From Sphaerolaimus hirsutus (lineage: Eukaryota > Nematoda > Chromadorea > Monhysterida > Sphaerolaimidae): 64,000 nucleotides of DNA. This document shows, piece after piece, positions 1,890-20,314 of the stretch; position 1 is the first letter of the stretch, and each line of letters starts with the position of its first letter. A model generated the notes under the pieces. The model was not told where the DNA came from and did no database searches. It saw only the letters and a program-made list of their open reading frames with translations. The position numbers were made by a program, and so were the translations under genes. The stretch is from positions 7,690,701-7,754,700 of the forward strand of contig OZ038450.1 of NCBI GenBank assembly GCA_964036195.1. Direction: 5' to 3'.

Positions 1890-2734
1890 GTGAGGGCGTT
1901 GCCTGTTTGATTTTTTCACGGGCTTTTGTGTGGTCGCTACTAGGGTTCAAACGGGATCCCGATCCCGGATCCCGTGAAATTCCGGGATTTAGCAGTTCCG
2001 ATCCAGAAACCCCAATCCCGATCCCGAAATCCAAAAATACCAATCCCGATCCCGAGAATCTCCCAAGTCCGGGATCCCGATCCCGGTAAAAATAGTGAAA
2101 ATTATAAAAAAGTGAAAATATGACATTTTTGCGTGCAACCATTTTATGTCACTTTTCTGGCATCCAACAGTGTTTTGAGACCTTTATGAACAACTGAATG
2201 CCAGAACAGTGACGAAAATCTCTATCCCTAGACCCCAATCCCGATCCCGAAAAAATGCCGATCCCGATCCCGTGACCCCAATCCCGGCCAATCCCGATCT
2301 CGAAATCTCAAAATCCCGATCCTGAAACCCCAATCCCGATCCCGAAAAGTCAATCCCGTTTGAACCCTAGTCGCTACTTGACGCGGCGGACATTACTGGA
2401 CTTTTTCTGAGCCATGCCGGGAGACTGGCGAAATTTGTTGACAGTGTGATGGTTCGCAACTTTGGCGTCGCCACGCACTGCTTGTCAACTGGTTTGTATA
2501 TCGATTCAGATTTTAGTCGACAATTTTGAAGTGCACATGCGGGAAAAGGAATGGATATTGTTATGCGCATTTGAACATCGTTCCGCGACCCGTCAACTAA
2601 AATCTGGATGGAAACAAGTCGGCTCAGTTGACACTCGATGCCATTGTCAACTAGTGTGTAAACGCTCTCTGCCACAGTCCCCCTCCCCGAACCTTACCAA
2701 CCAGATTGTATCTTTATCGCCAATGCGAATACAG
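1890..2734 (+). other. Intron A-B of copy 1
   Basis: Contains the GGGATC-rich element at 1941-2369 and then a degraded block (about 2384-2670) with several TTGAC/GTCAACT words, like the MITEs elsewhere in the window. The intron ends at ACAG before exon B. No coding potential is convincing. Confidence 0.6.
1941..2369. mobile_element. hAT-like GGGATC-array element, copy 1 of 5
   Basis: The termini are TAGGGTTCAAACGGGAT and its inverse, ATCCCGTTTGAACCCTA. The flanks carry a perfect 8-bp duplication, GTCGCTAC (1933-1940 and 2370-2377). Inside are GATCCC/GGGATC hexamer arrays around a unique core that reads TGCCAGAA and GTTTTGAGACC in all family members. No transposase is present. Confidence 0.8.
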
Positions 2735-2842
2735 GAGCCGGTAACAAATGCGTCGGCGGCCGAAGTACTGGGCATCATGAGTGGACCTGACGCGTGCGAC
2801 AAGCCGCCCGATCAGAACAAGGAAAATGCCGCACCCGGCAAG
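2735..2842 (+). CDS. Zinc-finger gene copy 1, exon B (linker)
   Basis: A 36-codon phase-0 exon between ACAG and GTGTGT. It contains the ASAAEVLG block conserved in every copy, followed by a polar tail ending in ENAAPGK. No finger is present. The conserved block could be a short interaction motif, but I recognise no domain. Confidence 0.75.
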
Positions 2843-3012
2843 GTGTGTCATCTGCAGTGTATTTGTCACAATTGTACTCAGTAGTGCTGGAAAAGCACCA
2901 GAAAAATGGCGTCATGGCGCGGCGCCCTTTGGCGCCCTCAAATGACGCCGGCGCCATGGCGCCATTCTATCACTATTCAGACACTTCAATCATCATTCGC
3001 TATCTATCGCAG

Positions 3013-3150
3013 AAGCGTTTCCAATGCAACCGATGCTCATACGGGACCGATCACAGCGCGTGGCTGCTGCAGAAACACGTTATTTACGAACATTTGGTCG
3101 ACCAGCTTGGAAAGGCGAAGCCGCACGATCCGGACCTGAACATTCCACAC
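3013..3150 (+). CDS. Zinc-finger gene copy 1, exon C (finger 3)
   Basis: A 46-codon phase-0 exon after ATCGCAG. It starts KRFQCNRCSYG and encodes one finger, Cys-x2-Cys-x12-His-x4-His, followed by a conserved LVDQLG helix-like tail. The last codon is CAC before GTAAAT, where the other copies have CAG before GT. Copy 1 has GTDHSAW where copies 2-4 have GTNHSAW. Confidence 0.8.
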
Positions 3151-3170
3151 GTAAATTTGTTCTTCCTGCC

Positions 3171-4157
3171 TAGTGATGGAAAAAGCGCCACACTTTTGGC
3201 GCCAAGCGCCAAAAGCGCCATGGCGCTTTTCGGACCACCAGCGCCAAGCGCCAATGGCGCCAGAGCAAAATAGCGCCAAGCGTCAAAAGCGCCATGGCGC
3301 TTTTCTGAACCCAAGCGCCAAGCGCCAATGGCGCCAGAGGGTAATGGCGCCAAGCGCCAATAGCGCCAGCGCCAAATTTTTCTCTGCAATTCGTTTATAG
3401 TATGATGAATTCATAACTGTGCCGCACCATAGTAGAAGACATAAAATCCCGTTTTCTTACAATAAACTTTTCGTTATCAACGTTTATCAGTTGAGGCTTA
3501 AAATGAATAAGGGCGAAGGTGAATAACTACCGTATTTCCTCGAAATACCCCCATGGGGTTATTGTTTCGTCAGCAAAATTTTTGAGGGGTATAATTAGAG
3601 GGAGGGACTTATTCGAGGGGGTGGGGCTTTATTATCACATCAGAAATTTTGAAATTCAGAAATAGAACAGACTTTTACATACCCAAAACCGGTAATTTAT
3701 GTGATCAAACCGGATATCTTTGGACGTATATGCATACCTACCTATATACATATACAAACTACTTTATTCATTCAAGGGTGGGATAATTTGAGGAAATATG
3801 GTCAATACATTTGTCCCCAAATATTATGTACTATTAATGTCCCCTAACACCCTTATATTTCTCAATATTTATTAAGTTGTTCTCAAAATTGATCAACTGG
3901 ATTGTCGAATTGACCTTTATTATCACAATTTTTATAATCATGGTTGGCGCTTTTTTGGCGCCATTCAAAAAGCCGGCGCCAATAGCGTCACCAGAAAATG
4001 GCGCCAAGCGCCAAAAGCGCCATGGCGCTTTCTCAGATCCCGGCGCCGAGCGCCAATGGCGCCAGAGCGTTTTAGCGCCAAGCGCCAAAAGCGCCATGGC
4101 GCTTTTTGCTTTGGCGCTAGCGCCAGGCGCCAGCGCCATGGCGCTTTTCCATCACTA
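3171..4157. mobile_element. hAT-like GGCGCC-rich element in intron C-D of copy 1
   Basis: Begins TAGTGATGGAAAAAGCGCC and ends GGCGCTTTTCCATCACTA, flanked by a perfect 8-bp duplication, TTCCTGCC (3163-3170 and 4158-4165). Both ends are packed with GGCGCC and AGCGCCA words; the AT-rich middle (about 3390-3940) has no transposase. It starts only 20 bases after the exon C donor. A smaller block of the same family (about 2882-2975, also ending ATCACTA) sits in the preceding intron, but I find no clean duplication for that one. Confidence 0.75.
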
Positions 4158-4419: not shown

Positions 4420-4608
4420 GTACCCAATTTAAAAACCGAGAACAACATGTCCGCGTTGGACGATTTCACCGGGGTCGTGGACGAGTCCGCGTTCGGCTTG
4501 GACGGGTCCCAGATGGGCGGCAGCGAGCTGGGCGGTTCGGAAATTACCGGCTTCTCGGACGCGCAGATGCACGCCGGCGAGGACGACGGCGAGATGTACG
4601 GCACTGAG
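4420..4608 (+). CDS. Zinc-finger gene copy 1, exon D (acidic linker)
   Basis: A 63-codon phase-0 exon after GTTTCAG and before GTACGT. It is rich in Asp, Glu, Ser and Gly, with the conserved blocks FGLDGSQMGGSE, GFSDAQMHAG and EMYGTE. It has no fingers. An acidic, low-complexity segment between finger clusters could be an activation or interaction region; that is inference. Confidence 0.8.
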
Positions 4609-4813: not shown

Positions 4814-4939
4814 GGCGACGTCAACTACCCAGAGGCTTACCCGGAAGGCGACCCATCCACATCTGCGATCACCCGCGGAATACAGGCCAAACGTCCAAAA
4901 CTATCCCCCAATGCTTCCGGTTCTTCCCCCACACTCAAA
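4814..4939 (+). CDS. Zinc-finger gene copy 1, exon E (basic linker)
   Basis: A 42-codon phase-0 exon after ACGTGCAG and before GTGAGA. It starts GDVNYPEAYPEGD and ends with the basic, Pro/Ser-rich stretch AKRPKLSPNAS. KRPKL resembles a nuclear-localisation signal. Exon E is the least conserved exon between the four copies. Confidence 0.7.
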
Positions 4940-4979: not shown

Positions 4980-5488
4980 ATTTGTGAAAAAGTATTAAAA
5001 AATGTAACTGAAATATTTATATTTAAATTTTTACTCACCCCAGAGTTCAGAAACGTACGGTAATTTTTTTATTTTTGCTCATGAGTAAACGTGACGTGAG
5101 TAAAATACTTTTACCGCAAAACGTAAAGGTCAGTATTTTTCAGAAATTTTGTTTCAATTGTCACTCAAAATCACTAATAGTCATTCGTTTTGCCCGTTTT
5201 CACCTTCAAGTTCGCCTATTTTTGGCTATATATGGTCTTATATACCAACCACAATTTGGCCATTTTTCCTCTATTTGTAGTGTTTTTCACTCTTTTCTCC
5301 CTTCCATGCCTTGAAAAAACACTACCTATCTACAATCTATATACAATGCACATCTGTACTTAAGTACTTTCAATTATGTATACGTAAAAGCGAGTACAGG
5401 AACTTTTTCGAAGGAAACGTAAACCTCTTCACTCAGTACTCGTAAAGTACGTAAAAGTAAATACGTAAAAGTAAATACGTTTGAACAA
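4980..5488. mobile_element. ACGTAAA-rich transposon-like repeat in intron E-F
   Basis: AT-rich block with many ACGTAAA/GTAAACG words, ending AAATACGTTTGAACAAG. The same family occurs at 15131-15608 and, with clean 8-bp duplications, at 39847-40353. Limits are approximate. Confidence 0.5.
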
Positions 5489-5525
5489 GTATGCTTTCAG
5501 TATATCATTCTCTCCCGGCGCGCAG

Positions 5526-5750
5526 AAATGCCCCCAGTGCCCCTACACGACGACCAAGGCGGGGCACATGCGCAACCACACCATCTACGTGCACTCTGGC
5601 GGCGCGGCGGGCGCCGCCGGCACCAGCAAGGGCGCCGCCACGCCGCCGGCCAAGTGGTTCACGTGCGACACGTGCGGCCACAAGGCGCGCACCAAGAGGG
5701 AGTTGGATCGACACAAACTGCAGCACGCCGTTTCAGCATCACAAGACAAG
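5526..5750 (+). CDS. Zinc-finger gene copy 1, exon F (fingers 4-5, last common exon)
   Basis: A 75-codon phase-0 exon after GGCGCGCAG and before GTAGGT. Finger 4 begins KCPQCPYTT and ends YVH; finger 5 begins FTCDTCGHKA and ends LQH. An Ala/Gly-rich spacer separates them. It is GC-rich compared with the introns. This is the splice donor exon for the whole terminal array. Read-through without splicing gives a stop after about 27 more codons (5831), with AATAAA at 6106-6111, so a short unspliced isoform is possible. Confidence 0.85.
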
Positions 5751-7038
5751 GTAGGTTGGGAGCCACGGCCGGGTGCATTGCGTGTGTTGCGTGAATTTTT
5801 ATTGTGGCAACGAGCACTGGTAACTCACTGAAACTTGGGATACTCGAAAACATGTTTTGAGTGCTGTTGAGTTTACCAGAATACATTATTTTTGATTGCC
5901 GTTAAGTTGAGTTGACAGAATCCTCATTGTGGTCAACTCAAATGTGCTCGAAACAGATTTTTAGTTTCCCAAATTTTGGTGGTGTACTAGTATGAGCAGC
6001 GCCATTCCAATGAGCGACACTGTCATGGACAATGTGCGCTTTGAATAGTGCATTTCATCGACTACTCGCCATGAATGCTGTGCTAGACTTGCTAAACTTG
6101 TGCTAAATAAAGCACCAGCTTGTTAGGAGGTCCCAAATGCCGGTAGAGTACACTGTCCAATGTTTTGCAGTACTATTGTACGTTACGTTTGGAATGTAGC
6201 CAAAATATCTTGCCGTTTGCAGCTACTTCGGAATATGTTCCATGTCTTTTTTAATTTTGTCTGTTTCAAGCTGGAGCCGTTAAGTACTACAAAATTTTCA
6301 CAATTTATACCCCGTATTGGAAATTTTTATTTTTTTATATTGTTTAGTTGGTTAGATTAGTTGGTCAATCAAATATGCATATTTTCATGACACCCACGGA
6401 AAATTCAATTTAAAATGAAATAACTCCCAAATTCTCGAACAATTTTCACTGTCATTTTTCAATACCATTTTCTCAAAATCCTACTACACGAAAACTCGCG
6501 TATTAAAAGGAAAAAAGTTCAAAAACGGAATACGCATGAGATCTGCAAACTACAAGAAATATTGGTTTTCATTTGTAGAAATATAGGCAACGCTCCACGC
6601 TTTGCACCTGGCTGTTACGCGTTTATTTTCTTGGGTTGGGTTTTACTGTGCCCTTATTGATTTCTGAAATCCACCAGAGTTGTTTTAACGTCGATTAACA
6701 TTCCCCTGCCATGCCTTCCTGTGCAATTGTACAGTGTGCGTGTCACGAATCGCCCTTTTCAAATCTGCATTTATCACTTCCTGTTTATGAATTATGGCCG
6801 ACTTTTTGTGTCAAATTGTAAATGCGCCATGTCTGTGTACTGGAAAGTTGCGTGGTGCGTGTGCGTTTAGCTGCATTCTTACCGCTGCTTAGGTACCGTC
6901 GACACGCACACAACTTTTGACATTCAGTCTATGCAACATGTTGATTTTACTAACATCTGAGACCTCGTGTTTTAGGTGTTGAGTGTGTTAAACCAGAATG
7001 TGTTATCATGGATCTGAGCTTTTTGTCGCTACACCTGG
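5751..7038 (+). other. Intron F-T1, first part
   Basis: No coding exon or clear transposon seen. AATAAA at 6106-6111 could end a short isoform. Confidence 0.5.
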
Positions 7039-7064
7039 CACACAAGCACGCGCCCGACGATCAC
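7039..7064 (+). promoter_or_regulatory. Candidate RNA docking site for terminal-exon choice
   Basis: The RNA segment with core AAGCACGCGCCCGACGATC is the reverse complement of the motif repeated before the terminal exons. It lies alone in the long F-T1 intron, about 1.3 kb after exon F and 1.0 kb before T1. It pairs perfectly over 13 bases with 8601-8613 (before T2). With 7989-8005 (before T1) it pairs over 17 positions with one G-U and one mismatch. Docking sites of this sort are known from insect Dscam exon clusters; that role here is inferred from position and complementarity. Confidence 0.7.
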
Positions 7065-7983
7065 TTATTATTTGTCCCCGTTTGTTAGATTGTAACGAGT
7101 TAAAAAATGCGGGGTTGATTAAGAGTCTTTGATTGTAAATGTGTGAAAGCCACGTGCTTGTCCCCCAACATTTTCCATAGATTTATTTTATGGCGTTAGC
7201 TGGAGATTCTAGTTCCTATTGCTAGTTCACTGCATAAATGTAAGATGACATTTTCAATGAATTGGCATCACATCAATTGGTTGCCATCTCAATCAGACAC
7301 CGTATTTTCTCGAATGATCCAAATGGTATTCGTTTTTCATCAAATTTTTGGCTTGGTTGTTTCGAAAGGGACTGATTTTGGTGCCAGTCGCTTTTTCTTA
7401 TAGTCAGGGATGGGGCTTGTACATGTATATTTATCTGATTTGTCACCAAACTCCACTATCACTTGATGGCGTAAACACATTTTGCAATGTGCAATGTTGC
7501 AATTTTGTGTGGATGAATTCCATGCTATCTACATCGCTCAATTTCCGCTCTTCATATTTTTCTGGTTGGGTACAACGTTTTGTGCTTTTTTGTATCAATT
7601 ATTTTTCATGTTTTTATGATACCCCATTAAACAAACGTCTGTTCCCCACTTCCCCATCTAAGTGGTTTTGTAGATGGATGGGGAAAAGTTTATAGCTGCT
7701 TGATTTAATTTTGCTTTTTGATTTTTTTAAACCTTTTTGCCCATTTGTTTTGAAAATTAAAATCAATTAAAAAGATGAAGTGCTATCCCTATTTAAAAAA
7801 AAATTGTTTTTAAATATAGTGGTCATGGACATGAAATTATTGTTCCAAACACATTGTAAGCCGGGTGTGTGGTTCATGTAGTTTGTGAGTTCCAGTTTCC
7901 CATCGCCTGGCACAACGGACTTGTGTGTGCCAGTTGTGGTGCGTTTGTCTTTTACAAAACGCAATGTATATCTGTACCCCTTT
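7065..7983 (+). other. Intron F-T1, second part
   Basis: AT-rich, no supported gene or repeat; an ORF at 7348-7695 has no recognisable domain and is taken as chance. Confidence 0.4.
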
Positions 7984-8005
7984 CCGTTGGGCGTGTACTT
8001 GTGTG
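7984..8005 (+). promoter_or_regulatory. Selector-like motif before T1
   Basis: Reads CCGTTGGGCGTGTACTTG followed by TGTG, about 90 bases before the T1 acceptor. It has the longest pairing with the docking site, because CTTGTGTG also matches. Confidence 0.65.
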
Positions 8006-8095
8006 TGTGCGTGTCCGTAGCGAGTAGGCCGCGCTTGGACGAGTGCCCAGACGAGAAGAAGCCCTATTTCGGCACCCACGAAAAACCACCCTCAG

Positions 8096-8356
8096 TCGCT
8101 CGCCTCGCTGCTGGTGCCGCCGCGGAAGAACAACCACGACGGCTACTTCAACTGCGACTTCTGCGTGTACCGGACGACGTCCAAGGCGCACCTGCTGCGG
8201 CACGTGGCCACGGTGCACCTGCCCGACGACCAGGTCACCTGGCACCAGTGCGACCTGTGCCGCTACAGCACCAGGAGGGCCGACAGCCTGCTCAAGCACC
8301 GCAGGATACGCCACGCGCTGTCCAACGCCAATGCCGGCGCCAATGCCGCTGAGTGA
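8096..8356 (+). CDS. Terminal exon T1 of copy 1 (two fingers, stop)
   Basis: Starts in phase 0 after CCACCCTCAG with SLASLLVPPRKNN, then two fingers: FNCDFCVY to VH and HQCDLCRY to IRH. It ends in an Asn/Ala-rich tail and TGA. The DNA is GC-rich, like exons F, T5 and T6. Confidence 0.8.
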   Translation, partial: SLASLLVPPRKNNHDGYFNCDFCVYRTTSKAHLLRHVATVHLPDDQVTWHQCDLCRYSTRRADSLLKHRRIRHALSNANAGANAAE

Positions 8357-8598
8357 CGCGCTCGGCTCCATGCTCGTCCATCGCGTGCGTGCGCTCGTTA
8401 CCGTATCCATATGATTATGGGGTCTCTTACTCTCTAAACGCGTATTTGGTGGCAGGCAGCTTGGTGGTGTGATTTTACGTTTATTTTTCTAAATATTTAA
8501 ACACGCTTGTTGAAAATAATTTTGAAATCGTCCTTTATCGCCGCGCATTGCCCGTGTAAAATTTCTAAGTAAAAGTATATAAATATTTACGTTGGGTA

Positions 8599-8620
8599 CT
8601 CGGGCGCGTGCTTTTGCCAT
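8599..8620 (+). promoter_or_regulatory. Selector-like motif before T2
   Basis: CTCGGGCGCGTGCTTTTGCC, about 60 bases before the T2 acceptor. CGGGCGCGTGCTT (8601-8613) is a perfect complement of 7044-7056. Confidence 0.65.
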
Positions 8621-8676
8621 TTTGCGAGTTCGCGCGCAAATTCGTGTCAACTGACTCCCTCTGCGCTCTCGCCCAG

Positions 8677-8934
8677 CTGCAGCCGTACTTGAGCTCGTCG
8701 GCGGTCGAGGGCACCGTCTACTACGAGTGCCAGTTCTGTTCGTTCCGCACGAAAATTAAGGCGCACCTGCCGCGCCACATCAAGTGCATGCACGTGTCCG
8801 ACGACAAGGTCATTTGGCACCATTGTGACATTTGCGGCAACTTCAAGAATAAAAGAAAGGACAACTTGATGCAGCACCAACGGCGCTGCATGGCCAAACT
8901 CGCTCGCGCCCAGGCTTTATCGCCTGTGGTCTGA
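8677..8934 (+). CDS. Terminal exon T2 of copy 1
   Basis: Phase-0 start after CTCTCGCCCAG: LQPYLSSSAVEG, then fingers YECQFCSF to MH and HHCDICGN to QRRC. The last zinc ligand is Cys rather than His (C2HC). It ends SPVV and a stop. AATAAA at 8989-8994 is a plausible poly(A) signal. Confidence 0.8.
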   Translation: MQPYLSSSAVEGTVYYECQFCSFRTKIKAHLPRHIKCMHVSDDKVIWHHCDICGNFKNKRKDNLMQHQRRCMAKLARAQALSPVV

Positions 8935-8953
8935 TTGCATTTTGTGTTCCACT

Positions 8954-8977
8954 GCTCGGGCGTGTGCTTTTGTGCTA
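8954..8977 (+). promoter_or_regulatory. Selector-like motif before T3
   Basis: CTCGGGCGTGTGCTTTTG lies just after the T2 stop and about 370 bases before T3. It pairs with the docking site through 12 Watson-Crick pairs and one G-U. Confidence 0.6.
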
Positions 8978-9338
8978 ATTTCTGCGCTAATAAAAATTCG
9001 ATATAGTACATTTTCCGTAGCCCTGGTTTATTGCGTGTGTGTGTGTGCAATCTGCTGCATTGCTCGCTTTTGAAGCATTTTATTGCGTCGAAAATGTCCA
9101 CTGCGTTAACGCTCGTAAATAAACTCGGTAGAGTTTGTCGTCTAAACCACTTCTTGGGTGGCTATCTCACTCGGTTCACTGCATATCGGAACTTGGAACT
9201 TTAAGTCATGGTCTTTTGTATATTTGGACCCTGAATACCCTCAACAATCGAATAGTCCCTTGAATAAATACCCCCGCTGCACACTTTGTTGAACACCGCC
9301 ATCTGGTTTTAAAGCCCCTTTCCGCTCAAATTTCTCAG

Positions 9339-9584
9339 GTCGATATCCCAGAGACCAGATACACACGATATCGCCAGGAAATGTATTTTAGGTGTCAATT
9401 GTGCCAGTACAAAAGTACCCAAAAGTCGAACTTACGAAGACATATCAGAGGGAAGCATTTATCTGAAGATCTCGTCGATTGGTATCATTGTGCTGATTGT
9501 AACTACAAAACAAAGAGATCGGATGATCTTGTTAGGCACAATAAGATGTTTTGCCGCGGTAAACCCGGCAAATCTGATGATTGA
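9339..9584 (+). CDS. Terminal exon T3 of copy 1
   Basis: Phase-0 start after AAATTTCTCAG with VDIPETRYTRYRQEM. Fingers are FRCQLCQYKS to KH and YHCADCNYKT to MFC, so the second ends in Cys. It has a basic tail (RGKPGKSDD). It is AT-richer than T1-T2. Confidence 0.8.
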   Translation, partial: VDIPETRYTRYRQEMYFRCQLCQYKSTQKSNLRRHIRGKHLSEDLVDWYHCADCNYKTKRSDDLVRHNKMFCRGKPGKSDD

Positions 9585-9871
9585 CGTTGATAGGTTCTAT
9601 TTTTACAGCATTCTGATGGTTGGGTGTGCGCTATTTGGCCAGATTTAGCCAGTTGGCATGCTAAACTTTGTATCCAACCCTCCCCTAAAAAAAATCCACG
9701 TGAGCCCTCAATTTTTTTCCGGGTTTTGTCCTTGGTTGTGAACGTGTGTGATGTACCTTGGTGTGGATTTCCCCTGAGATTTTGTGGTTAAGCTGTCGCG
9801 TTTTCTTTGGATGCTCAAATTTTCCCAGTAGCATATTTTTTCGGATAAAGTTTTGAATGGTACGTTTTTCT

Positions 9872-9891
9872 GACCGTTGGGCGCGTGCTGC
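9872..9891 (+). promoter_or_regulatory. Selector-like motif before T4
   Basis: GACCGTTGGGCGCGTGCTG, about 60 bases before the T4 acceptor. It extends the complementarity to the docking site at its 5' side (GAYCGT). Confidence 0.65.
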
Positions 9892-9948
9892 CGTGAGCAG
9901 GAGTAACTTTGGCCGACATTTTTCCCTACCCGCCAATTTTCATCTCAG

Positions 9949-10173
9949 ATCAAGTCCCTTCTGTGTCCACCGGAAGTGTGGTTTAGATGCCCCTATTGTT
10001 CGCTGCATATCCGCCAACAGAGAAACCTGCAAAGGCACATCAAATCAAAACACTTGGCTGCGGATCAAATCGATTGGACCCACTGCGATCTGTGCGATTA
10101 CAAAACGAAGAGAACTGACTCTCTGAATAATCACATGAAAGTGCATCTTACCGGTCGACTTGCGCGAAAATAA
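9949..10173 (+). CDS. Terminal exon T4 of copy 1
   Basis: Phase-0 start after TTTTCATCTCAG: IKSLLCPPEVW, then fingers FRCPYCSL to KH and THCDLCDYKT to KVH. The second finger has His-x3-His spacing. It ends in a basic tail, LTGRLARK. Confidence 0.8.
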   Translation: MKSLLCPPEVWFRCPYCSLHIRQQRNLQRHIKSKHLAADQIDWTHCDLCDYKTKRTDSLNNHMKVHLTGRLARK

Positions 10174-10374
10174 GTGCTTTTTGTGCACTTACCAAGCTGT
10201 GCACTTCGCAAGCTCGACGTTTTGTTTGGCTGTTTTTTATAACTGCTTTCCGGTCGGATTTGTAAGTTAAATAAGATAAAGATACGTAGGCTAAAAGTGT
10301 TGTTTGGTTGTAAAAGTACTCAACAGTCAATTATGGGTACATTTCTGCTGGTAGCTTTTTGTGGGACAAAATAA

Positions 10375-10395
10375 CTGATCATCTGGCGTGTGCTA
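10375..10395 (+). promoter_or_regulatory. Selector-like motif before T5
   Basis: CTGATCATCTGGCGTGTGCT. A MITE of about 195 bases (10435-10629) separates it from T5. Without that insertion it would lie about 125 bases from the T5 acceptor, similar to T1 and T8. Confidence 0.6.
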
Positions 10396-10434
10396 AAATT
10401 GATTATACCTTGGATTATTGCTTTTCATATGCAT

Positions 10435-10629
10435 TGGCGGCCCGGACACTAGTTAAAAAATGTGTATCAACTCATATTTTGGCTTCACATGTCGCAGAGC
10501 ACTTGCCGTAATATGTATTTTTCAACATTGCCGCATGTGCATTTGTAGATTGCTCTGAGACACGTGAAGCCGAGTTGACACAGACCAGTTGCAGTTGACA
10601 TACAAGTGTCAACTGCTGTACAGGCCGCC
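10435..10629. mobile_element. GTCAACT-rich MITE before T5
   Basis: Left end TGGCGGCCCGGACACTAGTT and right end AGTTGACA...GGCCGCC form an inverted pair. The interior has inverted GGCTTCACATGT / ACACGTGAAGCC arms. The same family lies at 37854-38079. Confidence 0.55.
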
Positions 10630-10713
10630 CGTCATTTAAAGCGCGCGAGCGTCTGCATAGTAAGTTTGTACCCGTCGTTCGTACCAGTGCCAACGCCGTG
10701 CCGCCGCTCGCAG

Positions 10714-10959
10714 TACGCGCCGGTGATCCCGCAGCAGACGCTGCCGCAGCGCGCCTTCGACGGGCACTTCCACTGCGCCTGGTGCCCGTACAAGTCCAAG
10801 CAGCGGTGCAACCTCAAGCGGCACCACTACCTGGTGCACACGCACGCCGACCTCATCCAGTGGTTCCACTGCAACTTTTGCGATTTCCGCTGCAAAATGC
10901 GCGCCCGGTTGAAGGAGCACGAGATGAGGAAACACGCCGAGCATTTTCCCCCCGCGTGA
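10714..10959 (+). CDS. Terminal exon T5 of copy 1
   Basis: Phase-0 start after CCGCTCGCAG with YAPVIPQQTLPQRAFDG. Fingers are FHCAWCPYKS to VH and FHCNFCDFRC to KH. The stop follows HFPPA. It is GC-rich. The upstream ORF in the same frame (from 10606) overlaps a MITE end and is not part of the exon. AATAAA at 11174-11179 follows. Confidence 0.8.
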   Translation, partial: YAPVIPQQTLPQRAFDGHFHCAWCPYKSKQRCNLKRHHYLVHTHADLIQWFHCNFCDFRCKMRARLKEHEMRKHAEHFPPA

Positions 10960-11010
10960 TCGATCACTCTTTTGTGTATTGTCTTGTATCGCATTTGTAC
11001 ATTTTGTAGT

Positions 11011-11031
11011 CATCGTTGGGCGTGTGCATTT
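11011..11031 (+). promoter_or_regulatory. Selector-like motif before T6
   Basis: CATCGTTGGGCGTGTGCATT, about 50 bases after the T5 stop. A MITE (11051-11240) separates it from T6. Confidence 0.65.
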
Positions 11032-11050
11032 GCCATTTTAGAATCCACAG

Positions 11051-11240
11051 GGCTCACGCACGCTAGTTGACATAGCAGATTCGTGTCAACTCAATGTCAA
11101 CTAAAAAACTTCTAAAAATGTAGAAAAGCATCGCACTGAACAGAAACAATGAAAAGTAAGTGTCATGGTGAACAATAAATCACATAACTCACTGAAATCT
11201 AATTAACACGAATGCAGTTGACATCTAGCGTGCGTGGCGC
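11051..11240. mobile_element. GTCAACT-rich MITE before T6
   Basis: Its ends are inverted: CACGCACGCTAGTTGACAT on the left, with GTTGACATCTAGCGTGCGTG on the right. Several GTCAACT words lie inside. Confidence 0.55.
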
Positions 11241-11296
11241 CACTTCTCAACACCAAAAAGCGGCTACACATAAAGTAGCCTTGGCGCCCCCCACAG

Positions 11297-11560
11297 CAGT
11301 CCCGCACTCGTGCGCGGCGGGGCACCGGCCCCCAGTGCGCTATGGCCAACCCTCAAGCGGGCGAGGACGGACTATTCCACTGTTCCTGGTGCCTGTACAA
11401 AACGAGGCTGGTGGCCGACTTGAAGCGGCACCAGTACCTGAAGCACACGCACCCCGACCAGGTGCAGTGGCTCCACTGCAGGTACTGCGAGTACAGGTCA
11501 AAGTGGAAGCCGCATTTGAGCTCGCACATGTACACCCAGCACGGTGTGCCGTCGTCGTGA
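11297..11560 (+). CDS. Terminal exon T6 of copy 1
   Basis: Fingers FHCSWCLYKT to KH and LHCRYCEYRS to QH, ending GVPSS and TGA. Three in-frame phase-0 acceptors are possible: before 11297 (CCCCACAG), 11300 and 11336 (GGCCCCCAG). I give the first because it follows a pyrimidine run. The start of this exon is the least certain in the array. Confidence 0.7.
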   Translation, partial: QSRTRARRGTGPQCAMANPQAGEDGLFHCSWCLYKTRLVADLKRHQYLKHTHPDQVQWLHCRYCEYRSKWKPHLSSHMYTQHGVPSS

Positions 11561-11693
11561 ATGGGTGATTTGTTAGGCGTGTATGAGTGGAGAGCTAATT
11601 GTGATCGTTTGATGGTTATTTGGCTGCTGTCGTGCTTGACTTTTGCTATGAATTATAGCTTCTTCGTCGTGTGTCTTCTCAACACTATGGGTT

Positions 11694-11712
11694 TGATCGT
11701 CAGGCGTGTGTT
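11694..11712 (+). promoter_or_regulatory. Selector-like motif before T7
   Basis: TGATCGTCAGGCGTGTGTT matches the docking complement GATCGTC on its 5' side. A weaker copy (TTAGGCGTGTATGAG) lies at 11573-11587. Confidence 0.6.
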
Positions 11713-12123
11713 CCTCGTATTGGCAACGCGGGGTAGTTTACTTTAATTTTAAACCTTAGTAACAGTAATTTTCAATCTCTGGCAACTGTTTTTCATGGAC
11801 AACCTTTCCAGTAAGCTCAAATGCGTTAAAGCTGATTTAGAAGTTTCAAAAAATTTATTTCTGTCATAAACTAGTGTGTGTAGGGTTAATGGGAGCTCAT
11901 CATTGTTCATCGTGAAACTGCACTGACACCCCTTTGCTGAGTGCTTGCTGCCCCCCCCCCCCTACATAACACCAATGTTAACTCAATGCTAAATATGTAC
12001 TGTTGACTTTGACACATGCTAATAAAAGCGTGTCAAACGCTCCTTTGCTTAACTTCATCCAAACTACCAAATCGATTCTCTCTGCTGTGTGAATTTACCA
12101 TTTTTATCTTTACGCCTATTCAG

Positions 12124-12387
12124 GATGAAAGGCATGATGGTACATCAAATGGGGGTATCAAACAAAAGTGCACCTCATTCCAATGTGGATTGTGTCCATA
12201 CAGCGCCAGAGAGAAGAAAAACCTTTACCAACACATTTATTGGAAGCATGCCAACTCTGAAAGCATCGATTGGCACTACTGCGACCGGTGTGATTATAGG
12301 TCGAAAAGTAAGGCTAATTGTAGGAGGCATTTGATTCGGAAACATGGCGTATTTGGTACGAGCTTCCCAACGGCGCTTGGAAACTGA
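12124..12387 (+). CDS. Terminal exon T7 of copy 1
   Basis: Phase-0 start after a pyrimidine-rich ACGCCTATTCAG: DERHDGTSNGG, then fingers FQCGLCPYSA to KH and HYCDRCDYRS to RKH, tail GVFGTSFPTALGN. Confidence 0.8.
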   Translation, partial: DERHDGTSNGGIKQKCTSFQCGLCPYSAREKKNLYQHIYWKHANSESIDWHYCDRCDYRSKSKANCRRHLIRKHGVFGTSFPTALGN

Positions 12388-12794
12388 CGTGATTGGTGTT
12401 TTTTTGGTCTGTTTGATTGTCTAGATTGTTTTCCATTTCTATTTAAGTAGAATAATTTCTAGGGTGCATGCACACTCTTGATACTTGATTAAGAAAACAG
12501 AATACGTATTAGATGCATGTATTTTAGGCGCCTAATTACCTGTGCAATGCAATCTGCTCGATGTGCATTTTAGCACGTGCACTATACACGGGGTTACGAC
12601 GATATGGCTTTTCGATGTCGATATTCTATGTGAGTAATGGTCGACATTCTGTACCATTGTCTATCTATCGACTTGTTGATAAATACCTTTCAATGTTAAA
12701 TAATTTTTTAAAAATTTTGTTTCGGACTTTAAAAGTCGACAATCGATGCGTTGTATCGTCCCCCGCGTGCTGGGTGTTGCTGCCCGCGGCCCAG

Positions 12795-12820
12795 CTGATC
12801 CTGTCGGGCGTGCCCTTTTT
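12795..12820 (+). promoter_or_regulatory. Selector-like motif before T8
   Basis: CTGATCCTGTCGGGCGTGCC followed by CTTTTT, about 115 bases before the T8 acceptor. Confidence 0.6.
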
Positions 12821-12935
12821 GTCCAGACAACATTTTCCCATTGTGACGATAAGTCCATGTCCATAGTCGCTAAGTCCCCTTATTTGAAACTGGTCGTTAT
12901 CATTCCATCAATCAATCCACTCAACTCCACTGCAG

Positions 12936-13157
12936 ACCAAAGATGCTGGCATGGTGCCAAAATCTGATGGACTGCTCGCCTGCTCGTGGTGCCCATACCT
13001 CACAAAGCAGAAGGGCGCCCTGAATAGCCACATTTACTGGAAGCACACGCATCCCGACATGATTGTCTGGTCCCATTGTGATTTCTGTGAATATAGGTCA
13101 AAGTCTAAGTCGGATGTTAAGAAGCACATGAAAGCTAAGCATAGTGTGCTCGCTTGA
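12936..13157 (+). CDS. Terminal exon T8 of copy 1
   Basis: Phase-0 start after CAACTCCACTGCAG with TKDAGMVPKSDG. Fingers are LACSWCPYLT to KH and SHCDFCEYRS to KH; ends SVLA. Confidence 0.8.
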   Translation, partial: TKDAGMVPKSDGLLACSWCPYLTKQKGALNSHIYWKHTHPDMIVWSHCDFCEYRSKSKSDVKKHMKAKHSVLA

Positions 13158-13386
13158 AGTTTGGCGCTTTTTTATTTTTTTATTGATTGTTGTTTAATTT
13201 GTTAAGACGCAAATATAGCTTTCAAGAAATTATGTAAAAATTAGTTTCCATCGGTAAAAATTAAGTTTAGAGGAATGCATCATTGCCTTTGAAGATCGAA
13301 GTATTTACTTGTCTGCTTTAATATAAGTGTGTAAAGTTTTCCCTTGGTTTTTGTATTGCTTAACAAAATTCCCTTTATTGGCGAAG

Positions 13387-13629
13387 GTACCTTTGACGAC
13401 TGCTAACGACATCGGTGCAGCAATTAAACCTAAACTCGTATTCGAATGCAGCTATTGCGACTATAGGTCAACTTATAAGCACCATTTAAAAAGCCATATA
13501 AAATGGAAGCATGTCAGCGCTGAAAGTTTAGGCTGGCTTGAATGTGATTACTGCGAGTTTAGAACTAAATCAATCAATCGATCTAATTTAGGGAGGCATT
13601 TAAGGGATGTCCATGGTGTGAATCGTTGA
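13387..13629 (+). CDS. Terminal exon T9 of copy 1 (class I)
   Basis: Phase-0 start after TTGGCGAAG with VPLTTANDIGAAIKP. Fingers are FECSYCDYRS to KH and LECDYCEFRT to VH, ending GVNR. T11, T13 and T15 share this TANDIGAA leader, so I call the group class I. No GGGCGTG motif precedes it. Confidence 0.8.
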   Translation, partial: VPLTTANDIGAAIKPKLVFECSYCDYRSTYKHHLKSHIKWKHVSAESLGWLECDYCEFRTKSINRSNLGRHLRDVHGVNR

Positions 13630-13715
13630 TTGCTATTTTGCATTTGAAGTGTCTTTTATTCGCGTCTCAACTTCAAAAATATGGACGTATTTATGCTCGT
13701 CGCCATAGTTTTCCT

Positions 13716-13734
13716 GTCTGAGTGAGCCACTGTA
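13716..13734 (+). promoter_or_regulatory. Conserved intronic element before class II exon T10
   Basis: GTCTGAGTGAGCCACTGTA. It recurs before T12 (15008-15026), T14 (16261-16279) and relic T16 (18031-18049, one change). Its core complement AGTGGCTCACTCA occurs at 18712-18724, after the array. Conservation may simply reflect recent duplication; a second pairing system is a hypothesis. Confidence 0.45.
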
Positions 13735-13759
13735 ATATCCCACCGAAATGTCACGCATT

Positions 13760-13964
13760 GGGCCCACATACACTAGTTGACATAAAACTTCGTGTCAACT
13801 TAATTCAGAAAAATGTGATTTCAACTTTCGTATGTGGTGACACTTTTCAACAGAAACAATTTCCATTTTTTTTGTTCAAGTGTGGTGCTTTCAATAACTT
13901 GTTGTGTTATTTAGTTGCCATTCAGTTGACACGAATTTGCAATGTCAACTAGTGTCTGCGGGCC
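13760..13964. mobile_element. GTCAACT-rich MITE before T10
   Basis: Ends GGGCCCACATACACTAGTTG and (right) CAACTAGTGTCTGCGGGCC are inverted. The interior is AT-rich with GTGTCAACT words. Confidence 0.6.
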
Positions 13965-13989
13965 TAATGTGCAGTTATTTACATCCCAG

Positions 13990-14238
13990 ATCCCTGAGGC
14001 ATCAGCATCACCTGCCGGGCCCTCGTTAAGAGCGGAAATATCATTCCCCTGCGAATGGTGCGATTACCGGGCTCAGAACAAGTCGAGTATGCTAAGTCAC
14101 ATAAAATGGAAGCACACGCACAGTGATCTGATTAAGTGGTTTCATTGTGGCTACTGCAACTACAGATCAAAGCAAAAATCCGCTATTAAGCGCCATTCTG
14201 TGACAGTACATGGGGCTCAGCCCATTGCTGATGTCTAG
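13990..14238 (+). CDS. Terminal exon T10 of copy 1 (class II)
   Basis: Phase-0 start after ACATCCCAG with IPEASASPAGPSLRAEI. Fingers are FPCEWCDYRA to KH and FHCGYCNYRS to VH, tail GAQPIADV. T14 is nearly identical, and T12 and T16 are broken or decayed relatives; I call this class II. Confidence 0.8.
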   Translation: MPEASASPAGPSLRAEISFPCEWCDYRAQNKSSMLSHIKWKHTHSDLIKWFHCGYCNYRSKQKSAIKRHSVTVHGAQPIADV

Positions 14239-14426
14239 TTCTATTTTTGAGTCCTTAGATAGGAGCTAGGTAGCTTCATCCTATATCATGTCATCGTAAA
14301 AAAATAGATTTAGTGGATTGCTCCATGTCATTTACCAATAGAAGCACATGTCTTCTACATTGACATGTGATAAGAGTGTCTTTGGTGTTTGTATTGCTTA
14401 AATTTGTTTCCCTTTTTTTGGCGTAG

Positions 14427-14922
14427 GCACCTTTAATGACTGCTAACGACATCGGTGCAGCAATGAAACCTAAACTTATATTCGAATGCAACTATTGCGA
14501 CTAAGGCCCCACACACGCTGGTTGACGCCAAAATTAGCGTCAACTCAGAGTCAACTGGTCAAAAATTCAATTGACTCTGAGCCATTTACAATATGTATCC
14601 AAAAAATCCCCTTCTTTCACTCTACATCAATCGACTTTTCAATATTTCTTAATCAACACAGAAAAAAATTAAAAATAGTTATACTTAAAACAGTTGACTC
14701 TGAGTTGACTCAATCGACTTCTAAAAAGTAGCGTCAACCACCGTGTGGAGCGCCTATAGGTCAACTTATAAGGGCCATTTAAAAAACCATATAACGTGGA
14801 AGCATGTCAGCGATGAGAGTGTAGGCTGGTTTAAATGTGATTACTGCGAGTTTAAGACAAAAGCAGTCAAGCGGTCTAATTTAATGAGGCATTTAAGGGA
14901 TGTTCATGGGAAACTACGTTGA
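14427..14922 (+). pseudogene. Terminal exon T11 (class I) interrupted by a MITE
   Basis: The exon begins at 14427 (APLMTANDIGAAMKP) and runs to the second Cys of finger 1, where the insertion creates a TAA. A 251-bp MITE lies at 14504-14754, flanked by TA at 14502-14503 and 14755-14756. Coding resumes at 14757 and stays open through finger 2 to the TGA at 14920-14922. Apart from the insertion the exon appears intact, so it was lost by a single recent event. Confidence 0.8.
14504..14754. mobile_element. TA-duplicating MITE inside exon T11
   Basis: Ends AGGCCCCACACACGCTGGTT and, right, AACCACCGTGTGGAGCGCC form imperfect terminal inverted repeats; GTCAACT words occur inside each arm. Comparison with T9 and T15 shows the empty-site sequence and proves the TA duplication. 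The same family lies at 20063-20312. Confidence 0.85.
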
Positions 14923-15059
14923 TTGCATCGTAAATTTGAAGTGTTTGTTATTCTGGTCTCAACTTCATAAATATGATCGTATTTAGTCTCATCGCTATAG
15001 TATTTCTGTCTGAGTGAGCCACTGTAAATATTCCACTTAAAATGTCACGCAATGTGCAT

Positions 15060-15780
15060 GAGGCATCTGTATCTCCTGCGGGCGCTTAGTTAAGAGCGGA
15101 AATATCACTACCTTGTGAATGGTGTGATGTCAGAGTTGTTAAAAGTACCGAACTTTTTTCAAAGTATATGCAAACGTAAAGTATTTATTTTTACTCACCC
15201 CCTGCGTACAGAAAATGTAAAGTATAAATTTTTACGTTTACACATAAAATAGTTAAAAGTGAGTATTTTCGCCCTGCCCCAATTTTCACTAAAATCATTA
15301 ATTTTTATACCTCTTTGCCCATTTTCGCCTTCAAATTTGATAATTATTATGCTTTGTTTCCTATTTTTGGCTACTTTTTATTGGATATGTGCTTATATAC
15401 TAATTTTTGGCTATTTACCCTCTTTTGTGCCTTTTATCCTTTTTGTTGATCGATGCCTGGAAAAAGCATACCTGAAATACGTTTTCTTTACTTGAGAACA
15501 TTAAAACGGATACGGGTACATTTTTCAGAGGAAACATAACCCTATATTAAATCATTACTCAAGTATACGTATTTTTAGAGTAAACGTAAATACGTTTTAA
15601 CAAATATGGTGATGGCTGTGCTCCGAACAAGGCTAAATATGCTCAGTCACATAAAGTGGACACTGCTTTGTAGCATTGTGGCGACTTCAACTACAAATCA
15701 AAGCAAATATCCACTGTTAAGCGCCATTCCCTGGCAGTTCATGGGGCTGTACCCATTGCTGATGACTTATCTTTTTTTGA
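15060..15780 (+). pseudogene. Broken terminal exon T12 (class II)
   Basis: The left part (15060-15129) reads EASVSPAGA, then a stop, then LRAEISLPCEWCD. The right part (about 15609-15780) retains finger-2 residues but has an in-frame TAG. A 478-bp repeat sits between them. No clean acceptor remains. This is a dead relative of T10 and T14. Confidence 0.75.
15131..15608. mobile_element. ACGTAAA-rich transposon inside T12
   Basis: Begins CAGAGTTGTTAAAAGTAC and ends ACGTTTTAACAAATATG. Flanks GGTGTGATG and GGTGATG are probably a decayed target duplication. Same family as 39847-40353. Confidence 0.65.
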
Positions 15781-15926
15781 GTAATTAAGTGAATGTTGAC
15801 CCAGGTAGTTTCATCACGGCCCTTGCCAATCGATAGCAATCCAAGCACATGTCTTCTACATTGACATGTGATAAGTTTTCCTTTGGTTTTTCTATTGCTT
15901 AAAAAACTTTCTATTCATTCGCGTAG

Positions 15927-16169
15927 GAACGTTTAACGACTGCTAACGACATCGGTGCAGCATATAAACGACATCTCATGTACGAATGCAACTATTGCGA
16001 GTATAAGTCAACTCATAGAGGTCATTTAAATACCCATATAAAATGGAAGCATGTCAGCGATGAGAGTGTAGGATGGTTCAATTGTGATTACTGCGCGTTT
16101 AAAACAAAAGCAGTCAATCAATCTACTTTAAGAAGACATTTAAGGTTGGTCCATGGCATGGAACAGTAA
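15927..16169 (+). CDS. Terminal exon T13 of copy 1 (class I)
   Basis: Phase-0 start after TTCGCGTAG with ERLTTANDIGAAYKRHLM. Fingers are YECNYCEYKS to KH and FNCDYCAFKT to VH, ending GMEQ. Upstream at about 15848-15872 is the hairpin ACATGTCTTC...GACATGT shared with T11 and T15. Confidence 0.8.
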   Translation, partial: ERLTTANDIGAAYKRHLMYECNYCEYKSTHRGHLNTHIKWKHVSDESVGWFNCDYCAFKTKAVNQSTLRRHLRLVHGMEQ

Positions 16170-16319
16170 TTGTATACTAATGTTAAATTTGAAGTATTTA
16201 TTATTTGGGTCTCAATTCGACTAAAAATTGCAGTCCTGCTCATTGCCGTAGCTATTTTCTGTCTGAGTGAGCCACTGTATTCCACCAAAAATTTTACGCA
16301 GTATGTGGTTACATCCCAG

Positions 16320-16568
16320 ATCCCTGAGGCATCAGCATCACCTGCCGGGCCCTCGTTAAGAGCGGAAATATCATTCCCCTGCGAATGGTGCGATTACCGG
16401 GCTCAGAACAAAGCGAGTATGCTAAGTCACATAAAATGGAAGCACACGCACAGTGATCGGATTAAGTGGTATCATTGTGGCCACTGCGACTACAGATCAA
16501 AGCAGAAATCCACTGTTAAGCGTCATGCCCTGGCAGTACATGGGTCTGAACCCATATCTGATGACTAG
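16320..16568 (+). CDS. Terminal exon T14 of copy 1 (class II)
   Basis: Phase-0 start after ACATCCCAG with the same IPEASASPAGP leader as T10. Fingers are FPCEWCDYRA to KH and YHCGHCDYRS to VH, tail GSEPISDD. Differences from T10 are mostly in the second finger, including residues of the DNA-contact region. Confidence 0.8.
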   Translation: MPEASASPAGPSLRAEISFPCEWCDYRAQNKASMLSHIKWKHTHSDRIKWYHCGHCDYRSKQKSTVKRHALAVHGSEPISDD

Positions 16569-16624
16569 TTCGTTTTTGAGTCCTTAAGTATATGTATGTT
16601 GAGCTACAAAGTCCTCTTGAGCCT

Positions 16625-17536
16625 GTTGATAAAGTTTATTCGCAATTATGTTTGCAGATTTGTTCAATCGCCATTGATGATGACTTGCTAGTGGGGCTGA
16701 CAAGGGTGACAAACATGGCCCATTTATTCCATTACCAAAGTTAAAAATTTCAGCCCCCTAGCTCTATCAAACCCCCGTTGAGAGCCCCTCAAATAAAAAA
16801 GTTAAAAGGTCACTCCTTAAGAGTGGCTTTTGATGGTCATAGTGATTCACCCACACATGCTACCTTCAAGGAGAGGGAATTTTTCAAAGAGTAGGCTTAG
16901 AGGAAGATTGTAGGGGTATAAAGATCTGCCCTTTCATGTGACCCTGTGGGTGCTAATCAATGAGACAAAATAAATGCAAAGTATTTGTACTTTTTCATCA
17001 CGGTAAAACTGACCAAAATTCCTTGTGAGCCAGTCTGCAGATCCTCTCTTTTGCTTCAACACTTCATGGAGCATGTGGTATTCACTAGGGACTGGCATGA
17101 TAAATGACTGGAACATGTGGCTTCACTTTCACGAAAAAGTATGTTTATTTTGCATTTTTTTGTTTCATTGACTGGCACCCACAGGGTCACATGAAGGGGA
17201 CAAATCTTTGTCCCCTACAACAAGTTCTCCTCTATGCCTACTCTTTAAGAAATACTTCTCCTTGAAGGTGGCATGTCTGGCTGTATCACTATGACCATCA
17301 ACAGCCACTCTCAGGAAGTGAACTTTTTTACCATGTGAACAAACAGTTAACCTCACATTTTTGTTTGGAGGTCTCTCAACGGGGGTATGAAAGAGCAAGG
17401 GGGCTGTAATTTAATGCTTTAGTAAAGAAATGAATGGGCTATATTTTGATACCAATGTCAGCCCCCTAAAATTTCATCACCATGAATGGCGGTTGAACAA
17501 ATGTACAAACATTTTCGCGAACGAACTTTATCAACG
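16625..17536. mobile_element. Foldback element between T14 and T15
   Basis: Long arms (roughly 300 bases each) are inverted: GTTGATAAAGTT on the left and AACTTTATCAAC on the right, with shared blocks such as CATGTGACCCTGTGGGTGC near 16936-16955 and GCACCCACAGGGTCACATG near 17177-17195. No transposase in the short loop. Confidence 0.65.
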
Positions 17537-17702
17537 GCGTGTAGGTAGTTTCATCATGCATCATGTCGTAGGTAAAAATTAGATTTAGAGAAATGCATCA
17601 TTGCGTTTGCCGATCGAAGCACATGTCTTCTACATTGACATGTGATGAGTTTTGGTTATTTGGTTTTTGTATTGCTTCAAAAATTTCCCTTTATTGGCGT
17701 AG

Positions 17703-17945
17703 GCACCTTTAACGACTGCCAACGACATCGGTGCAGCAATGAAACCGAAACTTATGTTCGAATGCAACTATTGCGACTATAGGTCAACAAATAAAAGCCA
17801 TTTAAAAAGCCATATAACATGGAAGCATGTGAGCGATGAGAGTGTAGGCTGGTTCGAATGTGATTACTGCGAGTTTAAAACAAAAGCAGTCAATCAATCT
17901 ACTTTAAGAAGGCATTTAAGAAAAGTCCATGGGATGGAAGGTTGA
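17703..17945 (+). CDS. Terminal exon T15 of copy 1 (class I, last intact)
   Basis: Phase-0 start after ATTGGCGTAG with APLTTANDIGAAMKP. Fingers are FECNYCDYRS to KH and FECDYCEFKT to VH, ending GMEG. It is closest to T13 and T11. Confidence 0.8.
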   Translation, partial: APLTTANDIGAAMKPKLMFECNYCDYRSTNKSHLKSHITWKHVSDESVGWFECDYCEFKTKAVNQSTLRRHLRKVHGMEG

Positions 17946-18159
17946 TTGCATAGTAAATTTGAAATGTCTTTTATTCAAGTTTCAACTTCATAAATATGCA
18001 CATATTCATGCTCATCGCCATAGTTTTCCTGTCTGGGTGAGCCACTGTATTCCACCAAAATTCCACATACATAGGTATTCAATTCTCAATCAGGTGCCTG
18101 AAAGGGGGTGTACTCCCATTTGCGTGTTCTTGTTTTTGACTACGGAACAAATAGAACCT

Positions 18160-18235
18160 TAGAAACCACATAAAGTGGAGGCACACGCTCTATGACCAAG
18201 TGGAGAAGTTTTGTTGCCAACATTGTCCCTTCAGA
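18160..18235 (+). pseudogene. Relic terminal exon T16 (class II)
   Basis: A short in-frame stretch reads HIKWRHTLYDQVEK, then CCQHCPFRG, aligned with the HIKWKHTHSDLIK and HCGYCNYRS region of T10. It is followed by a stop. The class II upstream element (18031-18049) is present but the leader and finger 1 Cys are gone. Confidence 0.55.
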
Positions 18236-18249
18236 GGAGCATAGCTAGG

Positions 18250-18796
18250 GAACACTCCTTTACCCAACATGGTGTTGAATATTCACTCTAGAGCAAAATA
18301 TTTTTCAAGTCATTTTTCTTGCTTAACTGAGTTGATTGTGTCACTTCATGAACTGTGACTGACCCATCCTCTGTAATATTGATAAATTTCAAATTAGTTG
18401 AATTATGCATACTGCATTTGCTCCAATCAGGCAGCTGAATGAGATAATCTGTGTGACCTGGAAAGTCTTTTGTTCCATGTCTGACCACTGGGCTCACTCT
18501 CACAGTACATACACTGTTAAACCATATAGGTATTATGGAAGCACACTTATTCTTATGGGGTTGGATGCTTCCATTTCAATTTCTGTTTATACAGATCCAA
18601 AGTGAAATTCAATTTGATAGGCACCCGCTTTGTACTCACCAGTCAATCACATAGCGGGATTTGTGTGTGGTTTCTGCTTTGTTCTCGCCTATAATCGGCT
18701 TCGGGATTTGTAGTGGCTCACTCATTAAGTGTATAAATTTACCTTGATGCCTCTGCTTGATTAAGTGCATTATAGCGATTGTGTCATTCTCCACCT
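18250..18796. other. Non-coding stretch after T16
   Basis: No gene seen. It contains AGTGGCTCACTCA at 18712-18724, the complement of the class II intronic element. Confidence 0.4.
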
Positions 18797-18817
18797 GGTC
18801 ACCGGGCGTGTGCTCCT
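18797..18817 (+). promoter_or_regulatory. Ninth selector-like motif, before relic T17
   Basis: GGTCACCGGGCGTGTGCTCC. It lies about 150 bases before a decayed finger, the same layout as for the intact exons. Confidence 0.5.
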
Positions 18818-18964
18818 CCTTTTTGTGTGTTTTTTGGCGCCGAGCCAAATAGTTCCTTCCTCGAATGTTGACTGGAGTGATGATGTTATCTGTGTCGGAA
18901 AATTTCGTTAAATGAAATAAGTTTTCCCCAATTTGCTGGGCTCACTGCTGGCTGGGTGTGAATG

Positions 18965-19060
18965 TAAATGCACACCGTAAAAATTGTCATGCTGCGATTA
19001 GCGACATCTGCACATGCGAGAACTGCTGCTTTTCTTGTAAAAAACAAGTTATAGTTATTT
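18965..19060 (+). pseudogene. Possible relic terminal exon T17
   Basis: The frame starting near 18958 reads HAAISDICTCENCCFSCKK. It resembles the second-finger region of T5 (HADLIQWFHCNFCDFRCK) in Cys spacing. No acceptor, first finger or His pair survives. Tentative. Confidence 0.3.
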
Positions 19061-19065
19061 TAAAT

Positions 19066-19094
19066 TTGGCAAAAGCACACGCCCGACGATCAGC
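19066..19094 (+). promoter_or_regulatory. Second antisense (docking-type) motif, downstream of the array
   Basis: The segment contains AAAAGCACACGCCCGACGAT, the reverse complement of the selector consensus including the CTTTTGCC extension of T2. It could be a second docking site at the 3' side, or a selector left in an inverted fragment. Confidence 0.5.
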
Positions 19095-20060: not shown

Positions 20061-20062
20061 TA

Positions 20063-20312: not shown

Positions 20313-20314
20313 TA

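Follow-up and report, generated by a model that had tools for sequence, protein, structure and literature searches.

How might a gene with a long row of alternative last exons choose one of them? The question is raised by gene A, which lies in a 64,000-nucleotide stretch of Sphaerolaimus hirsutus DNA (contig OZ038450.1, positions 7,690,701 to 7,754,700; hereafter the window). Six common exons, the last of them called F, are followed on their 3' side by an array of two-finger exons, each with its own stop codon. Judged from the sequence, gene A probably codes for a C2H2 zinc-finger protein that takes its final two fingers from any one of a large set of alternative terminal exons. Upstream of each of the terminal exons T1-T8 lies an element of about 20 nucleotides (nt), here called a selector, and its reverse complement occurs at two docking-like sites, dock1 and dock2. 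We propose, with a probability of about 60%, that the last exon is chosen by competing docking-selector RNA pairing.

Complementary elements at exons T1-T8

A 19-mer search of the window, allowing up to three mismatches, returned 10 matches, against 0.03 expected. Five of them are selectors (8595, 9872, 10377, 11011 and 11695), and two, on the minus strand and free of mismatches, are dock1 (7044-7062) and dock2 (19073-19091). The other three fall in DNA that codes for zinc fingers or in its antisense (14110 in T10, 16440 in T14 and 57381 in a paralog exon 1). The copies before T1, T3 and T8 (7978, 8947 and 12795) fall outside the mismatch cut and were found only by a scan that allows G-U pairs. 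These searches confirmed the first-pass annotation in placing a copy of the motif before each of T1-T8, at about the positions that it gave, but the reverse complement, which it had counted once, is present twice.

The complementarity is far above chance and limited to T1-T8. All 24-mers of 5751-8000 and 17951-20400 (4,700 in total) were scored against the seven introns before T2-T8, and the top two distinct sites were dock2 (280) and dock1 (265), with a mean of 134.6 and a standard deviation (sd) of 15.8. When the seven introns were shuffled, in 40 sets, the best 24-mer averaged 174.4 and reached 182 at most. Against the five T9-T15 introns, the four dock 24-mers ranked an ordinary 2,611 to 3,783 of 4,700. 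Duplex energies were also compared with 60 shuffles per intron: no shuffle was as good for T1, T2, T4, T6 or T7, one was for T3, and one was for T8 (z -2.5), whose best duplex lies partly at a second site, 12751-12776. Moreover, an inverted-repeat search that makes no use of the motif recovered dock-selector pairs as five of its 22 hits, among them selector 3 with dock2 (17/17 nt) and selector 2 with dock2 (19/20 nt). The pairing of selectors with a dock, as claimed earlier, thus stands as a pairing potential above chance that is confined to T1-T8, and for T5 and T8 it is weak.

Ungapped comparison of the T1-T8 introns gave blocks of at most 44 nt and scores of at most 18; the selectors therefore amount to short islands of conservation, though not the best match in most intron pairs. 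For the T4-T8 pair, the best match joins the extra element at 9611 with selector 8. A local hairpin between a selector and its own T exon was rejected as a candidate, being weaker than the better dock in all eight cases. Selector 8 is exceptional in that its own exon (-33.8) is about equal to dock1 (-34.0) and beats shuffles (-27.4, sd 2.1).

The T exons look terminal, because 12 of the 13 have no donor signal above the random 95% level within 200 nt past the stop. The best scores after the 13 stops range from 3.2 to 9.0, and random stretches average 5.8, with the 95% level at 8.7. Together with the stop codon in each exon, these scores support the earlier claim that every T exon ends the protein. 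An alternative layout, in which the T exons are internal and precede a common 3' untranslated region exon, is unsupported by donor scores in the same 12 of 13, T3, T5 and T15 being less clear. AATAAA lies within 400 nt of the stop in just three of the 13 (T2, T5 and T14), so cleavage sites were not located. The exons T1-T8 (8096-13157) are well diverged from one another.

Proposed RNA pairing and its alternatives

We hypothesize that dock1 in the pre-mRNA would pair with a single selector at a time. A helix with selector n would loop out T1 to T(n-1) and place the donor of F close to the acceptor of T(n); F would then be joined to T(n), and the message would be ended by the stop codon and poly(A) site of T(n). 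The same selectors would be available to dock2, which may assist from the other side. We infer that the helices form and that they steer splicing, as we do any role for dock2.

The evidence together favours RNA pairing over a DNA motif, because core C>T changes keep pairs, the reversed copies flank the set and dock1 has a divergent rather than a convergent position relative to the selectors. Ten selectors were compared with dock1 over a core of 13 nt (columns 9-21), and all 14 changes in the core C columns (10, 14, 16 and 20) are C>T, which keeps a G-U pair with the dock1 G. When 14 columns were tallied in nine selectors, C>T changes (12 of 45) stood against G>A changes (4 of 63; Fisher P 0.004), but two columns account for most of the changes and the copies are related to one another, so they are not independent. 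Dock2 has A where T stands in eight of the ten selectors. Of the 12 copies, the two reversed ones stand first and last, which has a chance of 1 in 66 by arithmetic after the fact.

The element might instead be bound as DNA by a sequence-specific protein, serving as a promoter, an insulator or a tethering site in one orientation at each T exon, with a reversed copy at either flank. This would be somewhat like the arrangement of CTCF sites at protocadherin genes, and for oriented sites of that type, with a convergent downstream site, dock2 fits. Dock1, however, misfits a convergent DNA loop because of its divergent position, and neither the pair-keeping changes nor the placing of the reversed copies speaks for a protein site. 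In its favour, the core GGGCGYGTGC is rich in G and C and hardly varies, the dock scans and shuffles give equal results for a reversed DNA motif and an RNA dock, and mod(mdg4), as described in the excerpted text of PMC12692577, combines alternative 3' exons that have independent promoters with trans-splicing. On balance we consider a protein-binding site unlikely. A further conceivable arrangement is that F and the T exons come from separate transcripts, as in mod(mdg4) and lola, and that dock and selectors pair in trans to guide their joining. The plan of common exons followed by many alternative 3' exons is the same, complementary arms between transcripts underlie some trans-splicing according to an excerpted review (PMC13149111), and early poly(A) sites coming first would no longer be a problem. 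Nevertheless, every part lies on one strand and in order, so joining in cis suffices. No sign of promoters at the T exons came up, though no search aimed at them was made, and pairing in trans seems improbable. We give least credence to the motif being a dispersed transposon end: although the region is repeat-rich and short inverted-repeat insertions occur in several T introns, the motif is confined within the 64 kilobases (kb) to the cluster, zinc-finger codons and antisense aside. An exact copy is also absent from viral contigs, a search of little weight here.

Several observations weigh against choice of the last exon by docking-selector pairing. The six core G columns hold four changes in 60 cells and the three core T columns four in 30, none of them pair-keeping; at column 7, a C just outside the core, A occurs once, G twice and T once, and the A and G changes are unpaired. 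The T5 duplex energy is no better than that of shuffles (z -0.7, 15/60), and the best ungapped match falls at both selectors in just 7 of 28 intron pairs. No selector was found before the five intact T9-T15 exons, either by duplex energy, where between 5 (T13) and 53 of the 60 shuffles were as good, or by the 24-mer scan. The donor-like site of T15 (9.0) is the only one above the random 95% level, and those of T3 (7.8) and T5 (7.1) lie inside the range of real donors (5.0-10.6). The main difficulty is one of order: splicing and cleavage at an early T exon could be over before the polymerase reaches the later selectors.

Origin of the docks and the surrounding locus

Dock1 looks like a decayed zinc-finger exon turned RNA element, as a frame match, identity to exon 1 and the fit of the selectors to the docks over exon 1 all suggest. 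The decayed finger frame around dock1 scores 65, which none of 2,000 shuffles reached. In 5760-7900, which holds 43 frames, the full dock1 frame scores 73 and the next best 34; the best frames in three other stretches score 43, 50 and 60, the last (20000-22200) being a relic exon that resembles T5. Dock1 and exon 1 of paralog C share 27 of 33 nt. Both docks depart from exon 1 at columns 10 and 15 of the core, and there each of the ten selectors fits the docks, although at column 15 the selector G could wobble with exon 1 as well. We discarded the idea that the dock1 finger is expressed as a terminal exon, since the AG at 6974-6975 does not keep phase with F and the one at 6982-6983, which does, lacks a pyrimidine tract. 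The first-pass picture is incomplete in that it missed this apparent zinc-finger origin, the second dock-like site, the additional elements at 9611 and 18793 and the selector-less T9-T15.

What dock2 might do is a separate matter. It is rather doubtful that two near-identical docks read one selector series from both sides, the dock having arisen from a decayed coding zinc-finger exon as an RNA address. If they did, pairing of selector n with dock1 would conceal T1 to T(n-1), pairing of selector n+1 with dock2 would conceal the later exons, and T(n) alone would be left exposed; such nesting would account for the other half of the choice, which one upstream dock, as excerpted in PMC6071210, leaves unexplained. 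With docks of 45-47 nt, dock1 is preferred by selector 1 (-42.7 vs -28.4 kcal/mol) and selector 4 (-44.8 vs -36.6 kcal/mol), dock2 by selectors 2, 5, 6, 7 and 8 and the element at 9611, and selector 3 and the element at 18793 scarcely distinguish the two; with the docks reduced to 27-nt cores, all save selectors 1 and 4 prefer dock2. Somewhat likelier than the two-dock arrangement, because of the T5-like relic found beyond dock2, yet still short of even odds, is that dock2 is a nonworking relic of a second, decayed array of dock and terminal exons. The relic exons directly before dock2 (18155 and 18530) and the selector at 18793, standing on its own, point the same way. Against decay, dock2 retains 21 of 23 nt of dock1 though their flanks do not align, and it pairs with the selectors better still than dock1 (280 vs 265). 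A relic dock2 concerns dock2 only and is compatible with selection through dock1, and the odds of the two are therefore separate.

Beyond T8 lies a second array, whose intact exons are of two types in alternation. Its intact copies are so alike (76% and 86% identity to T9 over 290 nt; T10-T14 92% over 269 nt) that we take it to be younger. A perfect, conserved hairpin (CACATGTC...GACATGTG) precedes its selector-less exons at 14333-14402, 15834-15903 and 17608-17677, and might serve them as an element of their own. Short inverted-repeat insertions with TAGTTGACA-like ends lie at 11051-11236, 13756-13969, 14505-14760 and 20070-20310, one of which splits a T exon of the younger array. A frame at 18916, considered as a lost T exon between 18793 and dock2, was not significant (23/300 shuffles).

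The common exons of gene A have GT-AG borders, are in phase 0 throughout and form an open frame of 324 amino acids, in which Pfam recognizes C2H2 fingers. Its exon-1, exon-3 and exon-F types recur in three paralogs (B, C and D). In gene B, the F-T intron before the single T exon showed neither dock nor selector among the best 22 sites per strand of the G-U-allowing scan, and an intron of the gene contains a Pao-type retrotransposon (about 25010-30610) with similar ends and matches to Peptidase_A17, Integrase_H2C2 and DUF5641. Directly after exon F of paralog D, 36840-36700 on the minus strand is, by eye, what we take to be Mariner-like transposase sequence. Another gene begins at 63003-64000 (plus strand); it is receptor-like by eye, and its first 73 residues have no Pfam match. 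No known RNA family reached its gathering score within 5000-20500. No relatives were found in a protein database (8,000 candidates scored) or in prokaryote genome contigs, neither search being informative on animals.

Table 1. Features of the gene A locus and its paralogs, in window coordinates
Feature	Position	Strand	Remarks
Gene A common exons (six; last = F)	1704-1889, 2735-2842, 3013-3150, 4420-4608, 4814-4939, 5526-5750	+	
Decayed exon-1 zinc-finger copy	6978-7088	+	contains dock1; ends in stop codon
Dock1, putative docking site	7040-7066	+	between exon F and T1, 1.3 kb past F
Selector 1	7978-8004	+	G-U scan; duplex energy
T1	8096-8356	+	stop codon; Pfam C2H2; acceptor picked from several AGs
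Selector 2	8591-8617	+	19-mer match; G-U scan; inverted-repeat search
T2	8677-8934	+	stop codon; Pfam C2H2
Selector 3	8947-8973	+	G-U scan; inverted-repeat search
T3	9339-9584	+	stop codon; Pfam C2H2
Extra weak selector-like element	9611-9637	+	between T3 and T4; G-U scan; intron comparison
Selector 4	9868-9894	+	19-mer match; G-U scan; duplex energy; inverted-repeat search
T4	9949-10173	+	stop codon; Pfam C2H2
Selector 5, weak duplex	10373-10399	+	19-mer match; G-U scan
T5	10714-10959	+	stop codon; Pfam C2H2; acceptor picked from several AGs
Selector 6	11007-11033	+	19-mer match; G-U scan; duplex energy
T6	11300-11560	+	stop codon; Pfam C2H2; acceptor picked from several AGs
Selector 7	11691-11717	+	19-mer match; G-U scan; duplex energy
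T7	12124-12387	+	stop codon; Pfam C2H2
Selector 8, weak	12795-12821	+	G-U scan; duplex energy
T8	12936-13157	+	stop codon; Pfam C2H2
Younger array	13387-17945	+	intact T9, T10, T13, T14, T15 and two broken copies; no selectors
Decayed zinc-finger exons past T15	18155-18245, 18530-18690		scores 79, 73; 0/300 shuffles each
Orphan selector-like element	18793-18819	+	after the array; G-U scan; inverted-repeat search
Dock2, second docking-like site	19069-19095	+	beyond the intact exons; 19-mer match; G-U scan; inverted-repeat search; 24-mer scan
T5-like relic exon	21637-21730		beyond dock2; score 60; 500 shuffles reach 48 at most
Paralog B	22370-33340	+	one T exon found
Paralog D	39739-37117	-	no T exons found
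Paralog C	57480-41413	-	two T exons found

Comparison with known systems

All docking-selector clusters known to us choose internal exons, and we found no described case of such a system on terminal exons in the open-licence PubMed Central (PMC) literature. In lola of Drosophila, common exons are spliced to any one of numerous alternative 3' exons, and genes of the lola and mod(mdg4) type carry a BTB domain in their common part. Gene A resembles both in having common exons and then one of many alternative 3' zinc-finger exons, and differs in that no BTB domain is among the 12 Pfam families matched up to E 1 by its common part. We know of no docking-selector series in lola or mod(mdg4).

The closest comparison is with Dscam. 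In the excerpted description of the exon 6 cluster, one upstream docking site faces a selector before each variable exon, the pairings compete and the exons are tandemly duplicated (PMC6071210). The arrangement proposed here would share the upstream dock, a selector before variable exons and the competing pairings, and it shares the tandem homologous exons, found in both T1-T8 and the younger array. Selectors stand beside T1-T8 (weak at T5 and T8) but not beside T9, T10, T13, T14 or T15, and there are two docks. Whereas the variable exons of exon 6 are internal in that account, each T exon ends the protein; moreover, a second dock-like site follows the array here and dock1 sits in what looks like a decayed coding exon. 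In beetle Dscam1 exon 9, bidirectional docking uses two docks with separate selector sets (PMC8042237, as excerpted). A dock on either side of the array is common to both, but the beetle exons are internal, and a single selector set could serve both docks here. For chelicerate Dscam, the excerpted text describes 5' cassettes with alternative promoters (PMC4835542).

If the proposal is true, docking logic would choose the last exon and its poly(A) site, an irreversible step, and folding would therefore compete with cleavage during transcription. RNA folding would be linked with the zinc-finger terminus of a protein that probably binds DNA, and lola-like genes would have a cis alternative to trans-splicing. 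The excerpted model of a duplicated stem-loop arm holds that a stem arm copied with each duplicated exon yields one dock and many selectors (PMC6071210). To this the locus may add a possible source of the dock arm, namely a zinc-finger exon from the gene's own family that has decayed; the decayed finger around dock1 is a direct lead on how docking sites originate.

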